A stretch of DNA of 64,000 nt. It comes from Methanocellales archaeon. Lineage in GTDB: Archaea; Halobacteriota; UBA148. The stretch covers positions 1-64,000 of the forward strand of contig JAQUQR010000001.1 in NCBI GenBank assembly GCA_028715985.1. The letters are read 5' to 3'. Below are positions 54,733 to 63,732 of the stretch, one piece after another (the first letter of the stretch is position 1; each line of letters begins with the position of its first letter). The notes beneath the pieces were generated by a model. The model made no database searches and was not told the origin of the DNA. It was given only the letters and a program-made list of their open reading frames with translations. Both the position numbers and the translations under genes were made by a program.

Positions 54733-57594
54733 TTAAGGCTCTATTGTTTTAAACCTATCAAACTCACTTCTTCTTAAGTCTATTTCCCGCTCAACACGGG
54801 CGTTTTCACATTTTATGCGATTTTGGAGATACGCCATATAAGATTTGGCAAATGAGGAAACAGATTCATTAGGATCATCTTTCCATGACGTTATATCTTT
54901 AATTTTCTCTTCATAGGCTTTTACTAAACCGTACTCCCCTCCAACAAATCTTATATGGGAAAGAATAGATTGAAGCTCTAATCTTAATTCGTGCGAAACC
55001 TCGAAATTTTTAACAATTTCCTTGATGATCTCCAATACATCAGGACTTCCTTCATATTTATCTAAAATCCAAAGAATATAGTCTAATTTTGTAGTATCTT
55101 TTGTTTTTATTATTTGAATCAATTTACCCTTAATATCTCCTTCTATTTTTGGGAATATTATGTTGAATAAACAGCTTGCTCCCCATCTTAGCTTCCCATC
55201 ACCGTTTTCAAACCATTTGAAAATCTCTTTAATTATCAAATCACTATTTTTGTTTAATTTACCAGTTAATAACTGAAAATCAAAAGGAATTGAATCAATC
55301 AACTTTACGCCACTTTCTTTATTTTTAACACGCTTATAGAAAAAATCAATAATCCTCTCAGGTTCTTTTTCAGCTAAAGGCAATAAAACTTGTTCAGTAT
55401 AATAATCCACGACCTTTTTCATAACTAGATTTTTTAGAATGATTTCATATTCATCAACAGATAAATCCTTACTGATTTCATCTGTAAGATATGATACTTT
55501 CTGTGGCCATTCATAAAAAGATAAATCCGTCATTTTATCTATTATTTTTACAAATAACGCCTTAAGGTTCTTATTATTAGAATACTGTCCACATATCGTG
55601 TGTAAAATTGCAAGAATAGATGAAATCTCACCATTTTTCAATATCTTGTTCGTGAGATCTGATAGCAGACACTCATCTATGTCTTTAACTGAGAAAAATG
55701 CAGATGCAATTTCAGATAAAGATTCACTCTTTTTTATCATTGTTTTGATATCCTTTTTAATTTGGCTCTTTTTATCACTTCCCAACAACCCAATTAGCAA
55801 AGCTACTCTAAATTTAGATAATTCGGAAATATCAAGGAGTTTTCTACCTTCGTTTGGTTTTTTGACTGCTAACTTATATAAAAAATAATGAACATTCTGG
55901 TATTCTCCTTGATTCTGGTCATTATAATCAGCCAATATTTCTGTTACTAAATAATTTTTCCATTCATTCAAGTTTTTGTCTGTGATTTGAATAACATAAC
56001 TTTCAATTTGTTCTTTTCTTTCTTTTTCTATCTGTTCGAAGTCTGAACCATAATCTAAGCCATAACCCACAAATGTTTTGTATTTTAGGTAATTCTCATC
56101 ACCTGATAGCTTTCCCTTTATCTCTTTCAGCTTTTCAGATTCGTTACCCGTTCCAGAAAACCATATTAAATGCTTCTCAATGGCTCTTTTATTGTAGTTT
56201 TTTATTTTGTCATAATTTTGGATCAAAAAGGAAAGAATAGTATCAATATTTTCACGCATAGTTTTAGTATGCTCTTCTGTTGTCTTCCCATTATGTATTG
56301 GAGATGAAGAATTAAACAATGCGGTGATAATCTTTTCTGATTCTCTACAATCTTGTTCGTTCTCAAACAATTTAATTAACAATTGTATAGAGTCGTGCCT
56401 GATCTCTTTAATCTTGTCCTTAATGGGTATTGGACCCATAATCAATGTGAATGTATCAAACTGTTCCTGTGCCGAGCCTTCAATTGTGTTATTCAATAAA
56501 GAACCGCATATGGAAATCAAAGCGTCTTTAATTTCTGTATTTTCACTGTCTAATTGAGAGATTCTCTCAATCAATATTTTTTGAGGGGTATAACCAATCG
56601 CTCTAACTGCATTTAAATCATATTTTCCAAATACCTTAAGTGTTTCAAGACATTCTTTTCGGAATAGGTCTTCAGAACATTTATTCACACAAAGTTCAAT
56701 AATTCGTTTATAATCCCAATACTTAACAGATCTAATAAATCTAAAAGAAGCAGTGATAATATCTTGACTCTTTTTGGTCTTCGAGTTACCATCATTCTGT
56801 TTTGATTTGTTCCAAATATCTTCTAAAATAGGTAAAAAATCAAACTCTTCTGGCAACCTATAATAACTCGAAAAAATATTTAACTTATCCATATACTCTA
56901 GTATTTTTTCATTTGAACCCAACTGAGAGAGTTCTTTTAGTTTGTCGATATTTAGTATTTGTTTGCCCTCTTTAAGTCTCTCGAATTGATCAACAATAAA
57001 TGAAAAATTATAACTAGCTTTAGTAATATATTTTGACATTACCTGAGCTAGTTTTTCCTTTAAGAAATCAAAATCTTTTGGAGAGAAATTCATCAGTTCT
57101 TGATCTGGTTTATATATTATATCACGATTTATCTCCGACCAAGCATGGAAAAGAGGAGTTGTAAGTTGTATTTCACAAATTAAATCTTTGAAATTGGTGT
57201 ATTCAACAAGTTTTTCCCTTGCATTATCTAATTTTACAATAATGTGAAGAGCATTATAATTATCGGGGCTACGTTTATCCTTGATATCTTCTATTTTCAA
57301 TTCTTGTTTGATAAATTCACTAAATTTGTAGATATCCTCTTCTAAATAAAAAATCACCCGACAACCAGCTAAGTCGTGAATATTGTTAATTAAATTTGGG
57401 TTGTTTTCAAGTTTTTTCCGTAATGAATCTATGTCTTTGCTTCTAGACTGAATTTGTTGATATTTGAAGTGTTTCGATTTTAGGATTTGTTCAAGAATGG
57501 CAGATACAGACTTGGCAAAATCGGTGTACTTTGTTCTTGATTTTTCATAGTTTTCAACAAACTTATTTATCTTCTCTTTGGTTTTACTATCCAT
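54733..57594 (-). CDS. RelA/SpoT-domain protein with long helical-repeat tail
   Basis: This 953-residue protein starts with a RelA/SpoT nucleotidyltransferase domain (about residues 30-165). Numbering from the ATG at 57600, visible catalytic-type residues are D76 and R81 (HDLAGCRVIFYL), Y115 and H119 (NYNALHIIVK), and E143-Q145 (CEIQLTTPLFHAW, ending in IIYK). Such domains make or consume (p)ppGpp-like alarmones, or pyrophosphorylate tRNA in toxin versions. The remaining 780 residues are mostly helical with HEAT-like spacing and no recognised motif. There is no hydrolase HD domain. Strong AT bias points to transfer. The ATG at 57594 has AGG eight bases upstream; 57600 is possible. Confidence 0.75.
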   Translation of the reverse strand: MDSKTKEKINKFVENYEKSRTKYTDFAKSVSAILEQILKSKHFKYQQIQSRSKDIDSLRKKLENNPNLINNIHDLAGCRVIFYLEEDIYKFSEFIKQELKIEDIKDKRSPDNYNALHIIVKLDNAREKLVEYTNFKDLICEIQLTTPLFHAWSEINRDIIYKPDQELMNFSPKDFDFLKEKLAQVMSKYITKASYNFSFIVDQFERLKEGKQILNIDKLKELSQLGSNEKILEYMDKLNIFSSYYRLPEEFDFLPILEDIWNKSKQNDGNSKTKKSQDIITASFRFIRSVKYWDYKRIIELCVNKCSEDLFRKECLETLKVFGKYDLNAVRAIGYTPQKILIERISQLDSENTEIKDALISICGSLLNNTIEGSAQEQFDTFTLIMGPIPIKDKIKEIRHDSIQLLIKLFENEQDCRESEKIITALFNSSSPIHNGKTTEEHTKTMRENIDTILSFLIQNYDKIKNYNKRAIEKHLIWFSGTGNESEKLKEIKGKLSGDENYLKYKTFVGYGLDYGSDFEQIEKERKEQIESYVIQITDKNLNEWKNYLVTEILADYNDQNQGEYQNVHYFLYKLAVKKPNEGRKLLDISELSKFRVALLIGLLGSDKKSQIKKDIKTMIKKSESLSEIASAFFSVKDIDECLLSDLTNKILKNGEISSILAILHTICGQYSNNKNLKALFVKIIDKMTDLSFYEWPQKVSYLTDEISKDLSVDEYEIILKNLVMKKVVDYYTEQVLLPLAEKEPERIIDFFYKRVKNKESGVKLIDSIPFDFQLLTGKLNKNSDLIIKEIFKWFENGDGKLRWGASCLFNIIFPKIEGDIKGKLIQIIKTKDTTKLDYILWILDKYEGSPDVLEIIKEIVKNFEVSHELRLELQSILSHIRFVGGEYGLVKAYEEKIKDITSWKDDPNESVSSFAKSYMAYLQNRIKCENARVEREIDLRRSEFDRFKTIEP

Positions 57595-57600
57595 TATCAT

Positions 57601-58528: not shown

Positions 58529-59233
58529 TTAAATATTCCTTTTTTCAGTAAGATCAAACACAGAATTTCCACCTATCTTAGCCCCTTCTAACAAAGCATT
58601 TCCACCTATCTCGGCCCCTCTGAACCAAGCATTTCCACCTATCTTAACACTCCTAAACCAAACATTTCTACTTATTCTAGCTGCCTCAAAACAAGCATTT
58701 CCACCTATCTCGGCCCCTCTGAACCAAGCATTTCCACCTATCTCGGCCCCTCTGAACCAAGCATTTCCACCTATTTTAGTTCCTCCAAACCAAGCATTTC
58801 CACCTATTTTAGTTCCTCCAAACCAAGCATTTCCACCTATCTTGCCCTCCCCAAATAAAGCACCTCCACCTATCTCAGCCCCTCTGAACAAGGCACTCCC
58901 ACCTATCTCAGCCCCTCTGAACCAAGCATGTCTACCTATTTCAACTCCATCAAACAAAGCATCTTTTCTAATAACGGCATGATTAAAATCTAGGGAATCT
59001 CTAATCTTCATCCCTGAAAAATCGATTTCAACTAATCTTGCTCCTTCAAAATTAAAATCCTCTTTGCTTACCTTTTCTTTGACTTTCTGATTTTTTGCAT
59101 CGTTTATTTCTTTGAATTCTTCACTTGATTCGTCTTCTGGGAGATCGATATGGAGTATGCAGAACTCAGAATTCTGCCAAAGCTTCTCATCACAACTCTT
59201 ACCATTACGAAATTGATATCCGCATGTTTTCAT
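58529..59233 (-). CDS. Pentapeptide-repeat protein with zinc-finger-like N-terminus
   Basis: This 234-residue protein has a short N-terminal cysteine/histidine motif (CGYQFRNGKSCDEKLW then FCILH, residues 4-28) and an acidic helical linker. About thirteen tandem 11-residue repeats of the form IGGNAWFRGAE follow, the Pentapeptide_3-type right-handed beta-helix. Several repeats are identical, so the array expanded recently. Some pentapeptide proteins mimic DNA or protect gyrase; many have no known role. Confidence 0.85.
   Translation of the reverse strand: MKTCGYQFRNGKSCDEKLWQNSEFCILHIDLPEDESSEEFKEINDAKNQKVKEKVSKEDFNFEGARLVEIDFSGMKIRDSLDFNHAVIRKDALFDGVEIGRHAWFRGAEIGGSALFRGAEIGGGALFGEGKIGGNAWFGGTKIGGNAWFGGTKIGGNAWFRGAEIGGNAWFRGAEIGGNACFEAARISRNVWFRSVKIGGNAWFRGAEIGGNALLEGAKIGGNSVFDLTEKRNI
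58550..58965. repeat. 33-bp tandem repeat array
   Basis: About twelve units of 33 bases, in the plus orientation of the type AAGCATTTCCACCTATCTCG plus 13 more, lie inside the pentapeptide-repeat gene. Some adjacent units are identical. Copy number is likely to vary between strains. Confidence 0.85.
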
Positions 59234-60244: not shown

Positions 60245-60748
60245 ATGAAATTCAGAATTGGCTTGGTTTTGGTTTTAGTATTGAGCGTGCTGACAGTAAC
60301 TTTTTCAGGATGCGTCGGAGAAGAGCTAGTCATGCCCTCCCAGCCCATAGCACCAAGGGCTGAAGCTGCTCCGACACCAACTCCAAAGCCAACACCAATT
60401 CCAATTGCAACTCCTGTACCAACTCAGACCCAAACTCAAGAAGTATCTCAGCTGAAACAAATAAAATTCTCAGGATGTGAGTCAGGAATTACGCCAGTAT
60501 TTCAACTAGAAAGCGGCACATTCATATTTAGGATGAAGAATGATGCCCCCTCTAATTTTACAGTTTTGCTCGTAGACGTTCGGGCCATCGAGTTCTGCGG
60601 GTGCTGTTACCAATACATAACTGCTGTTCCCGTTGATACAATTGGTCCTTTTGATGGAGTAAAAACCGTTGAGATATTTGAGTCTGGGGATTACATTTTA
60701 GACGTAAAAGCAGAAGGCCAGTGGTCGATAATCATTGAACAACCCTAA
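60245..60748 (+). CDS. Secreted lipoprotein with Thr/Pro linker
   Basis: This 167-residue protein has a signal peptide and lipobox (VLTVTFSGCVGEE, Cys at residue 23). A Thr/Pro/Ala-rich linker (APTPTPKPTPIPIATPVPTQ) is followed by a compact beta domain with several cysteines (FSGCESG, FCGCCYQY). The C-terminal segment (SGDYILDVKAEGQWSIIIEQ) resembles beta-sandwich surface domains. It is anchored outside the membrane; its ligand is unknown. Confidence 0.7.
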   Translation: MKFRIGLVLVLVLSVLTVTFSGCVGEELVMPSQPIAPRAEAAPTPTPKPTPIPIATPVPTQTQTQEVSQLKQIKFSGCESGITPVFQLESGTFIFRMKNDAPSNFTVLLVDVRAIEFCGCCYQYITAVPVDTIGPFDGVKTVEIFESGDYILDVKAEGQWSIIIEQP

Positions 60749-60856: not shown

Positions 60857-62209
60857 TCATTCCCTCATAATTTTCCATATGGCTAACAAGCCCACAACCA
60901 TGACAACTGATATCATCATAGTTGCAATGATCATTCTGCGGTTTGCTCTAGAAGTATGTAGCTCTATAATTTGGTCCGAGTCCAGGTTTATACATTTCTC
61001 GTGGGATGAGACTAGAATGGTGTAATTGCCAGGCAATAACCCCAAGAACGTAATATCTTCATCAGATGCGGATGCCAAGGTGATATCTCCTTTTTGTAAT
61101 ACCGCCTCTGTTGGCGAATCCACTATGACCCGTAAATTCGCGTACTCCTTGACAGGAATGATACCCCCCTCAGAGCATGGCAGTACCTCCACTACGTCCA
61201 GTCCGCTGAGCAGTGTCGGCGCTAAATCCTCCTGCCCATAGGTTCCGCTTATCACGTCTTTTCGTATGTTCGGTCCATTTATAATCAGAGGAACTCGCTG
61301 AGATTCGAGGGTTCTTGCATATTTCTCAGAGGCGTGTCCTCCAACTTCTCTGCCCATTTCTGTAAGATCAAAGGTCATCCCATGGTCTGCTGTGATGATG
61401 AATATCAGATCATTTTCCGAGCAAGTTTTATACAGGTCGTAAATATCCTTATCTAACCCTTCAATCACATACAAATACCCTTCTGACCCAAGGTAATGGC
61501 CAGCCAAGTCCACTGCACCCACGTTCACGGTCAGCAAGAACTTCTGGTCTGGATGATTTTTGCACATGAAACTTGCAATTGCTTCCGATGCATCTATGGC
61601 CCATTCATTATAGGCGATGTATCGCTCAACACCCTCTTTCCCCTCAAGAGGCAAATTATTTTGCCATTCCTGCATCAGCTCTACCACATCGTTCGGGCAG
61701 GAAATACTATGCTCTAGGGTTATAGAAGGCTCTCTAATCGAATGAGATGCATCGAAAAGGATTGCATCCTGTTCAGCGCGCATCTCCTCAAAGTCACCTT
61801 TTTGCATCACCGCCATGCAAATATAATCGTGTTCTCTAACGACATCGAAAATCGTTATCATTTCTCCTACCGTATCCTCGTTTGCTTTGGAATATCCCGT
61901 TGTAATGACGGAATGGCCTGGAGTAGTGCTAGGCTGTGGTGCCCTGACATCTAAAACACGTGTTCCACTTTCTGAGATCGCTATGATATTACTTAGGTTC
62001 GCTTTTCCTAATTCATTTCCATCTAGATCGTATGGAGCGAATTCTGGATAGATGTAGGATGATCCCATGCCATCGACGATCAGTAGGACGGCACCATGTG
62101 GGCTATGAACCGGATTGACGAATACATCGATGGCTGATGCATTTGATGAGATCAGGATACATCCTGTAAGGGTTAGTGCTATAATGATAGTTATATGATG
62201 TGGATCCAT
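60857..62209 (-). CDS. Alkaline-phosphatase-superfamily surface enzyme
   Basis: This 450-residue protein has a signal peptide at the ATG 62209 start and a metallo-phosphatase/sulfatase core. The metal and nucleophile region is GAVLLIVDGMGSSYIYPEF with PSTTPGHSVITTGYS. The second metal set is FIITADHGMTF and GGHASEK. A small beta domain and a C-terminal membrane helix (IIATMMISVVMVVGLLAIWK) follow, so the enzyme is exposed outside and anchored. Substrate (phosphomonoester, phosphodiester or sulfate) cannot be told. Confidence 0.8.
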   Translation of the reverse strand: MDPHHITIIIALTLTGCILISSNASAIDVFVNPVHSPHGAVLLIVDGMGSSYIYPEFAPYDLDGNELGKANLSNIIAISESGTRVLDVRAPQPSTTPGHSVITTGYSKANEDTVGEMITIFDVVREHDYICMAVMQKGDFEEMRAEQDAILFDASHSIREPSITLEHSISCPNDVVELMQEWQNNLPLEGKEGVERYIAYNEWAIDASEAIASFMCKNHPDQKFLLTVNVGAVDLAGHYLGSEGYLYVIEGLDKDIYDLYKTCSENDLIFIITADHGMTFDLTEMGREVGGHASEKYARTLESQRVPLIINGPNIRKDVISGTYGQEDLAPTLLSGLDVVEVLPCSEGGIIPVKEYANLRVIVDSPTEAVLQKGDITLASASDEDITFLGLLPGNYTILVSSHEKCINLDSDQIIELHTSRANRRMIIATMMISVVMVVGLLAIWKIMRE

Positions 62210-62370
62210 ATCATTCTTTTTTAACTTCTTTACAAGATATTCTAACTGTTTCACTAGTTGCAGCCTCAAATTTTCATATGTCTGTACTTTTGCGCTGCCC
62301 AGACCGATTGGAATCTATCTCAATTGTCACATATATTGCTGCAATATCTCTAGGGGATAGAAAGCCTGCA

Positions 62371-63732
62371 TCAAGAGAAACTTACTATCTGGTCATATTT
62401 TTCCTGGCTCAGGAAACGGGGTGTATATTTGTAACCATACGTACCCATAGAACTTATATAGGATCTTAGATGCTTTCTTGAGCCTGCCAGCAATCCTCCA
62501 TAGGCTACTATCATGTCTTTTCTATCCGTATTGTCTATCTGTTCCTCCAGATGCATGATACTGATCTCCTCTACATTGGCCCCGGCACCCATGGCATCTT
62601 CCAGAGACCTTTTTCCGATCTCAGTCAGTTCGTCATAAAGTGCCAGGATAGTCGGATTTGTGAACAATCCATGCTCTTCCTGGACAGGATCTTGTAGATC
62701 ATATCTATCTATCAGGATCTTAATCGCATCCATATGGTTCTGCTCCGATTTGGCTATTTTCAGAAAGATTGGTAGTTTCTCTTTATCATATAGATCGAGG
62801 TATAAGTCCCTTGCCATCTTCTCTTCTTCTCTGATTAAGAAGATGCCCTCAATTTCGGTGGTGGTAAGAGGCGCTTGCACCTGCCCTGCCTGCCCACGGA
62901 GCGGCTGCACAGCTTTGGATTCCAGCTCTAAAATCCCCTCTCCGCGCGCCACATTATGCATGACCTTTATGGAATCCTCGTCTGCCATACTCCAGATGAT
63001 AGACACTCTTTGGCCGACTTTGAAGGCTTTGTCATACTTGTCGCCAGTGTCCATCTTTCTCTTGAACTCAATGATGGTGTAGCCACCTTCTTCCCTTCCG
63101 CCATAATCAAGGATATCGTTGGTCCCGCCCAGTTCCTCATCCGGAACGTGAGGCCCGTAGTCATTTGTAGAGTACTTATCAAGGACAGTGACATTATAAC
63201 TATCAACTGCACCCATAATTATATCTGCGTCCTTCATCCACTCAGTGGGCTCAAAGCCGATGGCGACCCATCCGCTGGTATCTCCCTTCAGGGCCATGTA
63301 GAGCGAATCTTCATCATTCTTCCAGGAGATTTCGAGCTTTCCTCCCGAATAGCCCTGGGTGTTTGGCCCATATAAGGTCATGGTTTTAGCATACTCATTT
63401 TCTCCAACTAAAGCATCAGGCTTCCACTCCTCTGTGACTTCCGGCTGAGGGGCTTCTGTTGGCTTCGGCTGAGTTACTTCTTGAGGTTGAGTTGGAGTTG
63501 GCGTTGGAGTGGGCGTAGGCGTAGGTGTAGGTACGGGTGTAGGTTTAGGTGTTGGAGCGGGTGTTGGGGTGGGGATTGGAGTGGGTGTTGATGTAGGCCT
63601 GGGAGTTGGCGTAGGTGTAGGTGCGGGAACCGGGGTTGACTCTTCAGGTGATACACATCCTGAAATACTCATGGTAGCTATAGCTCCTGCAAATGCTATA
63701 TATTTGAGAAACTTGCGTCTTCCAATATTCAT
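62371..63732 (-). CDS. DOMON-DUF2202 fusion lipoprotein
   Basis: This 453-residue exported protein starts with [16 protein letters not shown] (twin-arginine-like) and a lipobox Cys ([10 protein letters not shown]). A Thr/Pro repeat linker covers about residues 30-85. A DOMON-type domain (about 105-270) has [39 protein letters not shown] and [15 protein letters not shown]2202 ferritin-like helical domain (about 285-440) has [34 protein letters not shown] and [14 protein letters not shown] domains bind heme or sugars; DUF2202 has ferritin-like metal ligands. A redox role outside the cell is inferred. Confidence 0.85.

Follow-up and report, generated by a model that had tools for sequence, protein, structure and literature searches.

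A DOMON-DUF2202 fusion lipoprotein of a Methanocellales archaeon, a plausible surface redox protein

What might an archaeal lipoprotein do that joins a DOMON domain to a ferritin-like DUF2202 domain, and does it take part in redox chemistry at the cell surface? The gene that raises this question lies near one end of the window, the whole 64,000-nucleotide stretch of DNA from a Methanocellales archaeon that was analysed. DOMON and DUF2202 are known families; their fusion is seemingly undescribed in the open literature, in which no description of the fusion or its ligand anatomy and no mention of "DUF2202" or "MJ0754" was found (subscription literature and domain-architecture databases lay outside the scope of the search). 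Open papers naming both DOMON and ferritin-like proteins included none on an archaeal fusion, as judged by title and the start of the abstract. The features to which the argument refers are as follows.

62371..63732, minus strand: DOMON-DUF2202 fusion lipoprotein gene, 453 aa, ATG start (from the ORF, Pfam and the orthologues L036 and L037)
63655..63732, minus strand: signal peptide, residues 1-26, with twin-arginine motif GRRKFLK and lipobox ISGC (Cys26) (from sequence)
63421..63651, minus strand: Thr/Pro-rich linker, residues 28-104 (from composition)
62986..63342, minus strand: DOMON domain (PF03351), residues 131-249 (from Pfam and fold match)
63235..63237, minus strand: Met166, predicted axial heme-b ligand, motif WMKDAD (alignment A3)
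63148..63150, minus strand: His195, conserved motif YGPH..D, invariant in the fused set
62956..62958, minus strand: His259, predicted axial heme-b ligand, motif MHNVARG (alignment A3)
62380..62856, minus strand: DUF2202 (PF09968) ferritin-like four-helix domain, residues 293-451 (from Pfam and likeness to MJ0754)
62470..62826, minus strand: span of the predicted metal ligands E303/E304, E330, H333, E388 and H421, invariant in the DUF2202 set
60245-60748, plus strand: second lipoprotein with a Thr/Pro linker, 167 aa, FSGC lipobox, no Pfam family

The sequence-only reading had described a Tat-exported, lipid-anchored protein with DOMON and DUF2202 joined by a Thr/Pro linker, and this description is borne out. 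Both domains are strong Pfam matches (DOMON, 99.5 bits against a cut-off of 32.7, 2e-28; DUF2202, 182 bits against a cut-off of 22, 8e-54), the linker holds 29 Pro and 21 Thr in 77 residues, and the twin-arginine motif and lipobox are accompanied in the host by Tat machinery, with three TatC matches and TatA-like proteins. The ORF carries the sole DOMON and the sole DUF2202 found in the genome (1.5 Mb, 96% complete). About 30 bp upstream of its start lies an A/T-rich stretch, by eye a putative TATA-like element, and the orientation of the adjoining genes does not suggest an operon.

Artefactual or chance joining of two neighbouring genes, which the same reading had named as a possible refutation, has a negligible probability. 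Orthologues at 83-85% identity occur in two independent congeneric MAGs, "Methanocellales archaeon MC 2" (L036) and "STD1_76" (L037), so that the fusion is present in three congeneric MAGs, and it recurs in many other genomes, where the fused DUF2202 domains belong to a single clade; orthology, synteny and dN/dS together rule the artefact out. Between congeners the fusion gene shows pairwise dN/dS values of 0.24-0.33; every comparison gives the DOMON half the lower value and the DUF2202 half the higher, and the gene is under purifying selection in the genus. The STD1_76 orthologue (L037:7704-9263, plus strand) has a Sec in place of the Tat signal, and its C-terminus is extended by about 75 aa in which CxxC and CxxxxC motifs recall a zinc ribbon or rubredoxin; further downstream comes a second, partial DUF2202 tail (G010:C18:5822-5935).

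Among 393 genomes of the phylum, DUF2202 is present in 59 and DOMON in 33, and the fusion is found in the window's genus and in several genera of one other family, f19 (Methanothrix-like, including a named Methanothrix, L038). The f19 lipoproteins share with the window protein the architecture, the lipobox, the ligands and the DUF2202 clade; they differ in having Sec-type signals, as in the congener L037, and in lacking the long Thr/Pro linker, so neither the Tat signal nor the linker, which is lineage-specific, is a family-wide trait. A tree with all 26 stand-alone copies gathers the fused DUF2202 domains in a single clade that excludes those copies (SH-aLRT 99.8), which suggests a single fusion event. 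The fused DOMONs form nearly one clade, strict monophyly being marginally rejected (p 0.043); two stand-alone Methanothrix-like DOMONs are nested inside it, and this nesting suggests later loss of their DUF2202 half. Outside the fused genomes the two domains co-occur above expectation: of 17 genomes with DOMON, 10 also have DUF2202, compared with 43 among all 377, as raw counts that include shared ancestry; such co-occurrence speaks for a functional pairing of the kind proposed below.

Whether the DOMON domain would carry heme can be approached through its ligands. In heme-b DOMONs the iron sits between a Met and a His ligand, and work in insects, plants and fungi has relied on these two residues to tell heme-binding DOMONs from sugar-binding ones (PMC10691727, PMC6881789, PMC10784544), in the latter of which the pair is not conserved (PMC10691727). 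The sequence-only reading had named a lack of axial heme ligands as a refutation; inspection of the fusion instead located a predicted axial pair, Met166 and His259, within heme-b DOMON motifs. Their equivalence to the CDH ligands is based on motif position and fold rather than on a direct residue-by-residue alignment. Both residues reach at least 90% conservation in the 32 sequences of alignment A3, and of 18 fused proteins 16 retain the Met and all retain the His. The exceptions are a fused paralogue pair with Lys at the Met position (L051/L057), which counts against the heme reading, and a stand-alone DOMON pair with Gln at the His position (L098/L099).

An AlphaFold2 model of the DOMON domain alone has only moderate confidence (pLDDT 68, pTM 0.73). 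Its fold matches are DBH, NxrC (7b04), EBDH gamma (2ivf_C), the CDH cytochrome (4qi3, 1pl3) and CBM9, so the search recovers heme-b proteins together with the non-heme DBH and the sugar-binding CBM9, the latter two weighing against heme. The modelled beta-sandwich is compatible with heme and is no proof of it. A sequence-profile search of the DOMON against solved cytochromes gave no significant match, and the heme typing therefore rests on ligands and fold; taken together, these make a heme-b type probable. The CDH cytochrome domain (AA8; 1D7B, 4qi3, 6JT6) has the same beta-sandwich and Met/His heme-b pair, although its fungal partners are FAD or PQQ dehydrogenases rather than a ferritin-like bundle and its sequence is too distant for a direct profile match. 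EBDH gamma and NxrC, which are among the best fold matches, are DOMON-like subunits that transfer electrons in molybdenum enzymes, and they lack a ferritin-like domain. CYBDOM and AIR12 proteins of plants and animals likewise have an extracytoplasmic Met/His DOMON, and some are ferric reductases (PMC10691727, PMC10784544); CYBDOMs are supplied with electrons by the cytochrome b561 membrane domain fused to them, whereas the archaeal fusion has a lipid anchor and no membrane domain. The host's gene for heme-b synthase, AhbD (555 bits, cut-off 500), indicates a supply of heme b.

The CBM9 match, and the resemblance of the Pro/Thr linker and surface anchoring to wall proteins, also raise the alternative of a ligand- or sugar-binding DOMON in a cell-wall or sheath adhesion protein whose helical domain is structural. 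This is rather improbable, because Met and His are kept in nearly all members, unlike in sugar-binding DOMONs (PMC10691727), and because the DUF2202 domain has an invariant set of acidic and His residues fit for metal.

That set was found when the helical domain was checked for metal ligands, whose absence the sequence-only reading had likewise named as a refutation: E303, E304, E330, H333, E388 and H421 are the same in all 44 DUF2202 sequences, in a predicted E/ExxH/E/H arrangement that is common to MJ0754 of Methanocaldococcus jannaschii. The DUF2202 model (pLDDT mostly about 80-96) superposes on MJ0754 (PDB 3q4r, which carries Zn2+) with a TMt of 0.96 at 45% identity, and MJ0754 (also PDB 3q4n, 3q4o and 3q4q) resembles the whole helical domain of the fusion, although its solved chain lacks a DOMON and it is annotated as hypothetical. 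A conserved metal site in the DUF2202 domain is thus a well-supported prediction from sequence. A canonical ferritin-like diiron protein, with two E/ExxH half-sites and six ligands, was considered and rejected, the second ExxH being replaced by SxxH: Ser418 occupies the position of the last Glu and is invariant in all 44 sequences (Ser418-x-x-His421). Other fold matches of the domain are the copper protein CopM and DUF305.

Stand-alone DUF2202 genes occur in telling company. In two genera of f7, a gene for DUF4405, which is cytochrome-b561-like, lies directly upstream of a DUF2202 lipoprotein gene (L062:9762-10855, minus strand; L016:960-1995, plus strand), so DUF2202 is paired here, independently of the fusion, with a protein of b-heme type, which speaks for the heme-metal redox reading given below. 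In the f19 genome G378, an exported DUF2202 stands between a ZIP transporter and a cation efflux (CDF) transporter in a tight trio with gaps of about 20 bp (L054:5138-8010, plus strand), which suggests a metal-handling role for that copy. The DUF4405 and ZIP/CDF associations, together with the joining of DOMON to a PQQ propeller described below, favour redox and metal roles for DOMON and DUF2202.

The reading that best accommodates these data, tentatively held at a little under an even chance, is that the fusion protein is a two-domain redox metalloprotein anchored at the membrane on its extracytoplasmic side, in which electrons pass between heme b and a ferritin-like metal site. In the DOMON, Met166 and His259 would hold a single heme b, and the domain would act as a one-electron cytochrome like that of CDH; the long flexible tether would let it contact redox partners in the membrane or at the surface. 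The DUF2202 bundle would hold one or two metal ions through E/ExxH/E/H, Fe being the most likely in vivo. Electrons could then move in either direction between the heme and the DUF2202 metal site, so that an oxidant (peroxide or O2) is reduced or the redox state of bound iron is changed at the cell surface. Among its supports are the nearly invariant Met/His pair, the invariant metal-ligand set, AhbD in the host and the heme-b proteins among the fold matches; against it stand a heme and a metal that are both predicted, a helical site one Glu short of canonical diiron, a solved homologue with redox-inactive Zn, a fused gene without a conserved operon partner, and a host genome in which neither DUF4405 nor an HdrE/NarI-type membrane cytochrome had a match. 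Should the protein bind both heme and metal and couple the two, it would be a small redox protein of the archaeal surface, of a kind undescribed in the open literature searched, and a function for DUF2202 would come within reach.

The main rival to heme-metal redox chemistry is surface metal handling, in which DUF2202 captures or buffers Zn, Fe or Mn for transport while the DOMON first reduces Fe(III) or Cu(II) or merely holds a ligand. It is possible, if on the unlikely side. Plain metal binding would explain the ZIP-DUF2202-CDF trio equally well, and the Zn2+ in crystals of MJ0754, the ferric reductase activity of plant DOMON-b561 proteins (PMC10784544) and the fold matches to CopM and DUF305 all point the same way; however, the ZIP/CDF linkage comes from a single genome, Pfam recognised no metal transporter among the typed genes beside the window's fusion gene, and the conserved Met/His pair indicates heme rather than metal capture alone.

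The sequence-only reading had also stressed the interest of such a protein for archaea that pass electrons outside the cell, and had suggested surveying the domain pair for co-occurrence with multiheme cytochromes; neither that setting nor such co-occurrence finds support in this host. No PF01578 cytochrome-c assembly protein was matched in its genome (the Methanosarcina acetivorans control was positive), and no multiheme cytochrome was found, CXXCH never occurring more than once in an ORF over the window, the next 13 kb of contig C1, and C5 from 60 kb to C19; the listed C1-C5 sites include no dense CXXCH cluster, with at most three same-strand sites per 1.5 kb. Extracellular electron transfer through multihemes is accordingly rejected for the host. 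McrA likewise had no match in the 96% complete genome, so a methanogenic host is not supported, and the lineage, whose close relatives are labelled Methanocellales, is apparently non-methanogenic. The host does have a Tat-exported NiFe hydrogenase beside a PF01292 b-type cytochrome, by which membrane electrons would be available, together with an RnfB-like protein and ApbE. The fusion is a plausible surface redox protein and not proof of an electron-exporting archaeon.

A link to electron export survives indirectly, through the Methanothrix homologues only. Methanothrix carries out DIET without surface multiheme cytochromes, and the route of electron entry is an open question (PMC10470525). 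Anchoring at the surface, a Met/His DOMON and the occurrence of the fusion in many f19 genomes, named Methanothrix included, would fit a protein whose heme-b DOMON exchanges electrons with outside partners or minerals and whose DUF2202 serves as a second relay. That role is improbable for the protein at hand: the window's host shows neither c-type cytochrome machinery nor multihemes, a single heme b with a ferritin-like site corresponds to no known conduit, and the M. thermoacetophila DIET paper names other surface candidates and never DOMON (PMC10470525).

Methanothrix harundinacea UBA475 has a gene for a PQQ beta-propeller protein that ends in a Met/His DOMON (L039:6285-8474, plus strand), and next to it follows a DOMON lipoprotein gene (L039:8534-9142, plus strand); DOMON proteins of similar length are encoded in G171, G216 and G372. 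A PQQ dehydrogenase-DOMON cytochrome arrangement is known from a fungus (PMC6881789). The joining of DOMON to another redox module in the same archaeal group lends some weight to the heme-metal redox reading, and the two genes side by side in one Methanothrix would also suit electron exchange with the outside. That DOMON-DUF2202 and PQQ-propeller-DOMON proteins make up a surface system for electron transfer that does without cytochrome c, relies on heme b, a quinone cofactor and ferritin-like metal sites, serves Methanothrix DIET and is partly shared with an uncultured, apparently non-methanogenic lineage is a speculative proposal with a low probability. The Methanothrix fusion family and the PQQ-propeller-DOMON proteins are candidates, in cultivable organisms, for electron uptake by methanogens without surface multihemes.

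A conserved operon around the fusion gene was rejected, the neighbours varying between genera. A DUF434/DUF5616 protein of the window is kept near the fusion in L036 and L037 and a phosphodiesterase-like protein in L037, while near one Methanothrix-like copy the typed genes belong to sugar biosynthesis and to the MFS and ABC classes; peroxiredoxin-like matches lie near two Methanothrix-like fusions but, few and divergent as they are, carry no weight. A second lipoprotein with the same kind of linker had been placed 3 kb away: the lipoprotein and its linker are real, and about 1.6 kb, occupied by a single gene (60857-62269), separates it from the fusion gene, the figure of about 3 kb being the distance from N-terminus to N-terminus. 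This lipoprotein adjoins the fusion in both congeners; it is a neighbour conserved within the genus that may have a functional tie to the fusion. Elsewhere in the window, a 955-aa protein (54733-57600, minus strand) has an N-terminal RelA/SpoT domain and a long remainder without a Pfam family, and a pentapeptide-repeat protein with strongly repeated units (58529-59233, minus strand) is kept near the fusion gene in the genus.
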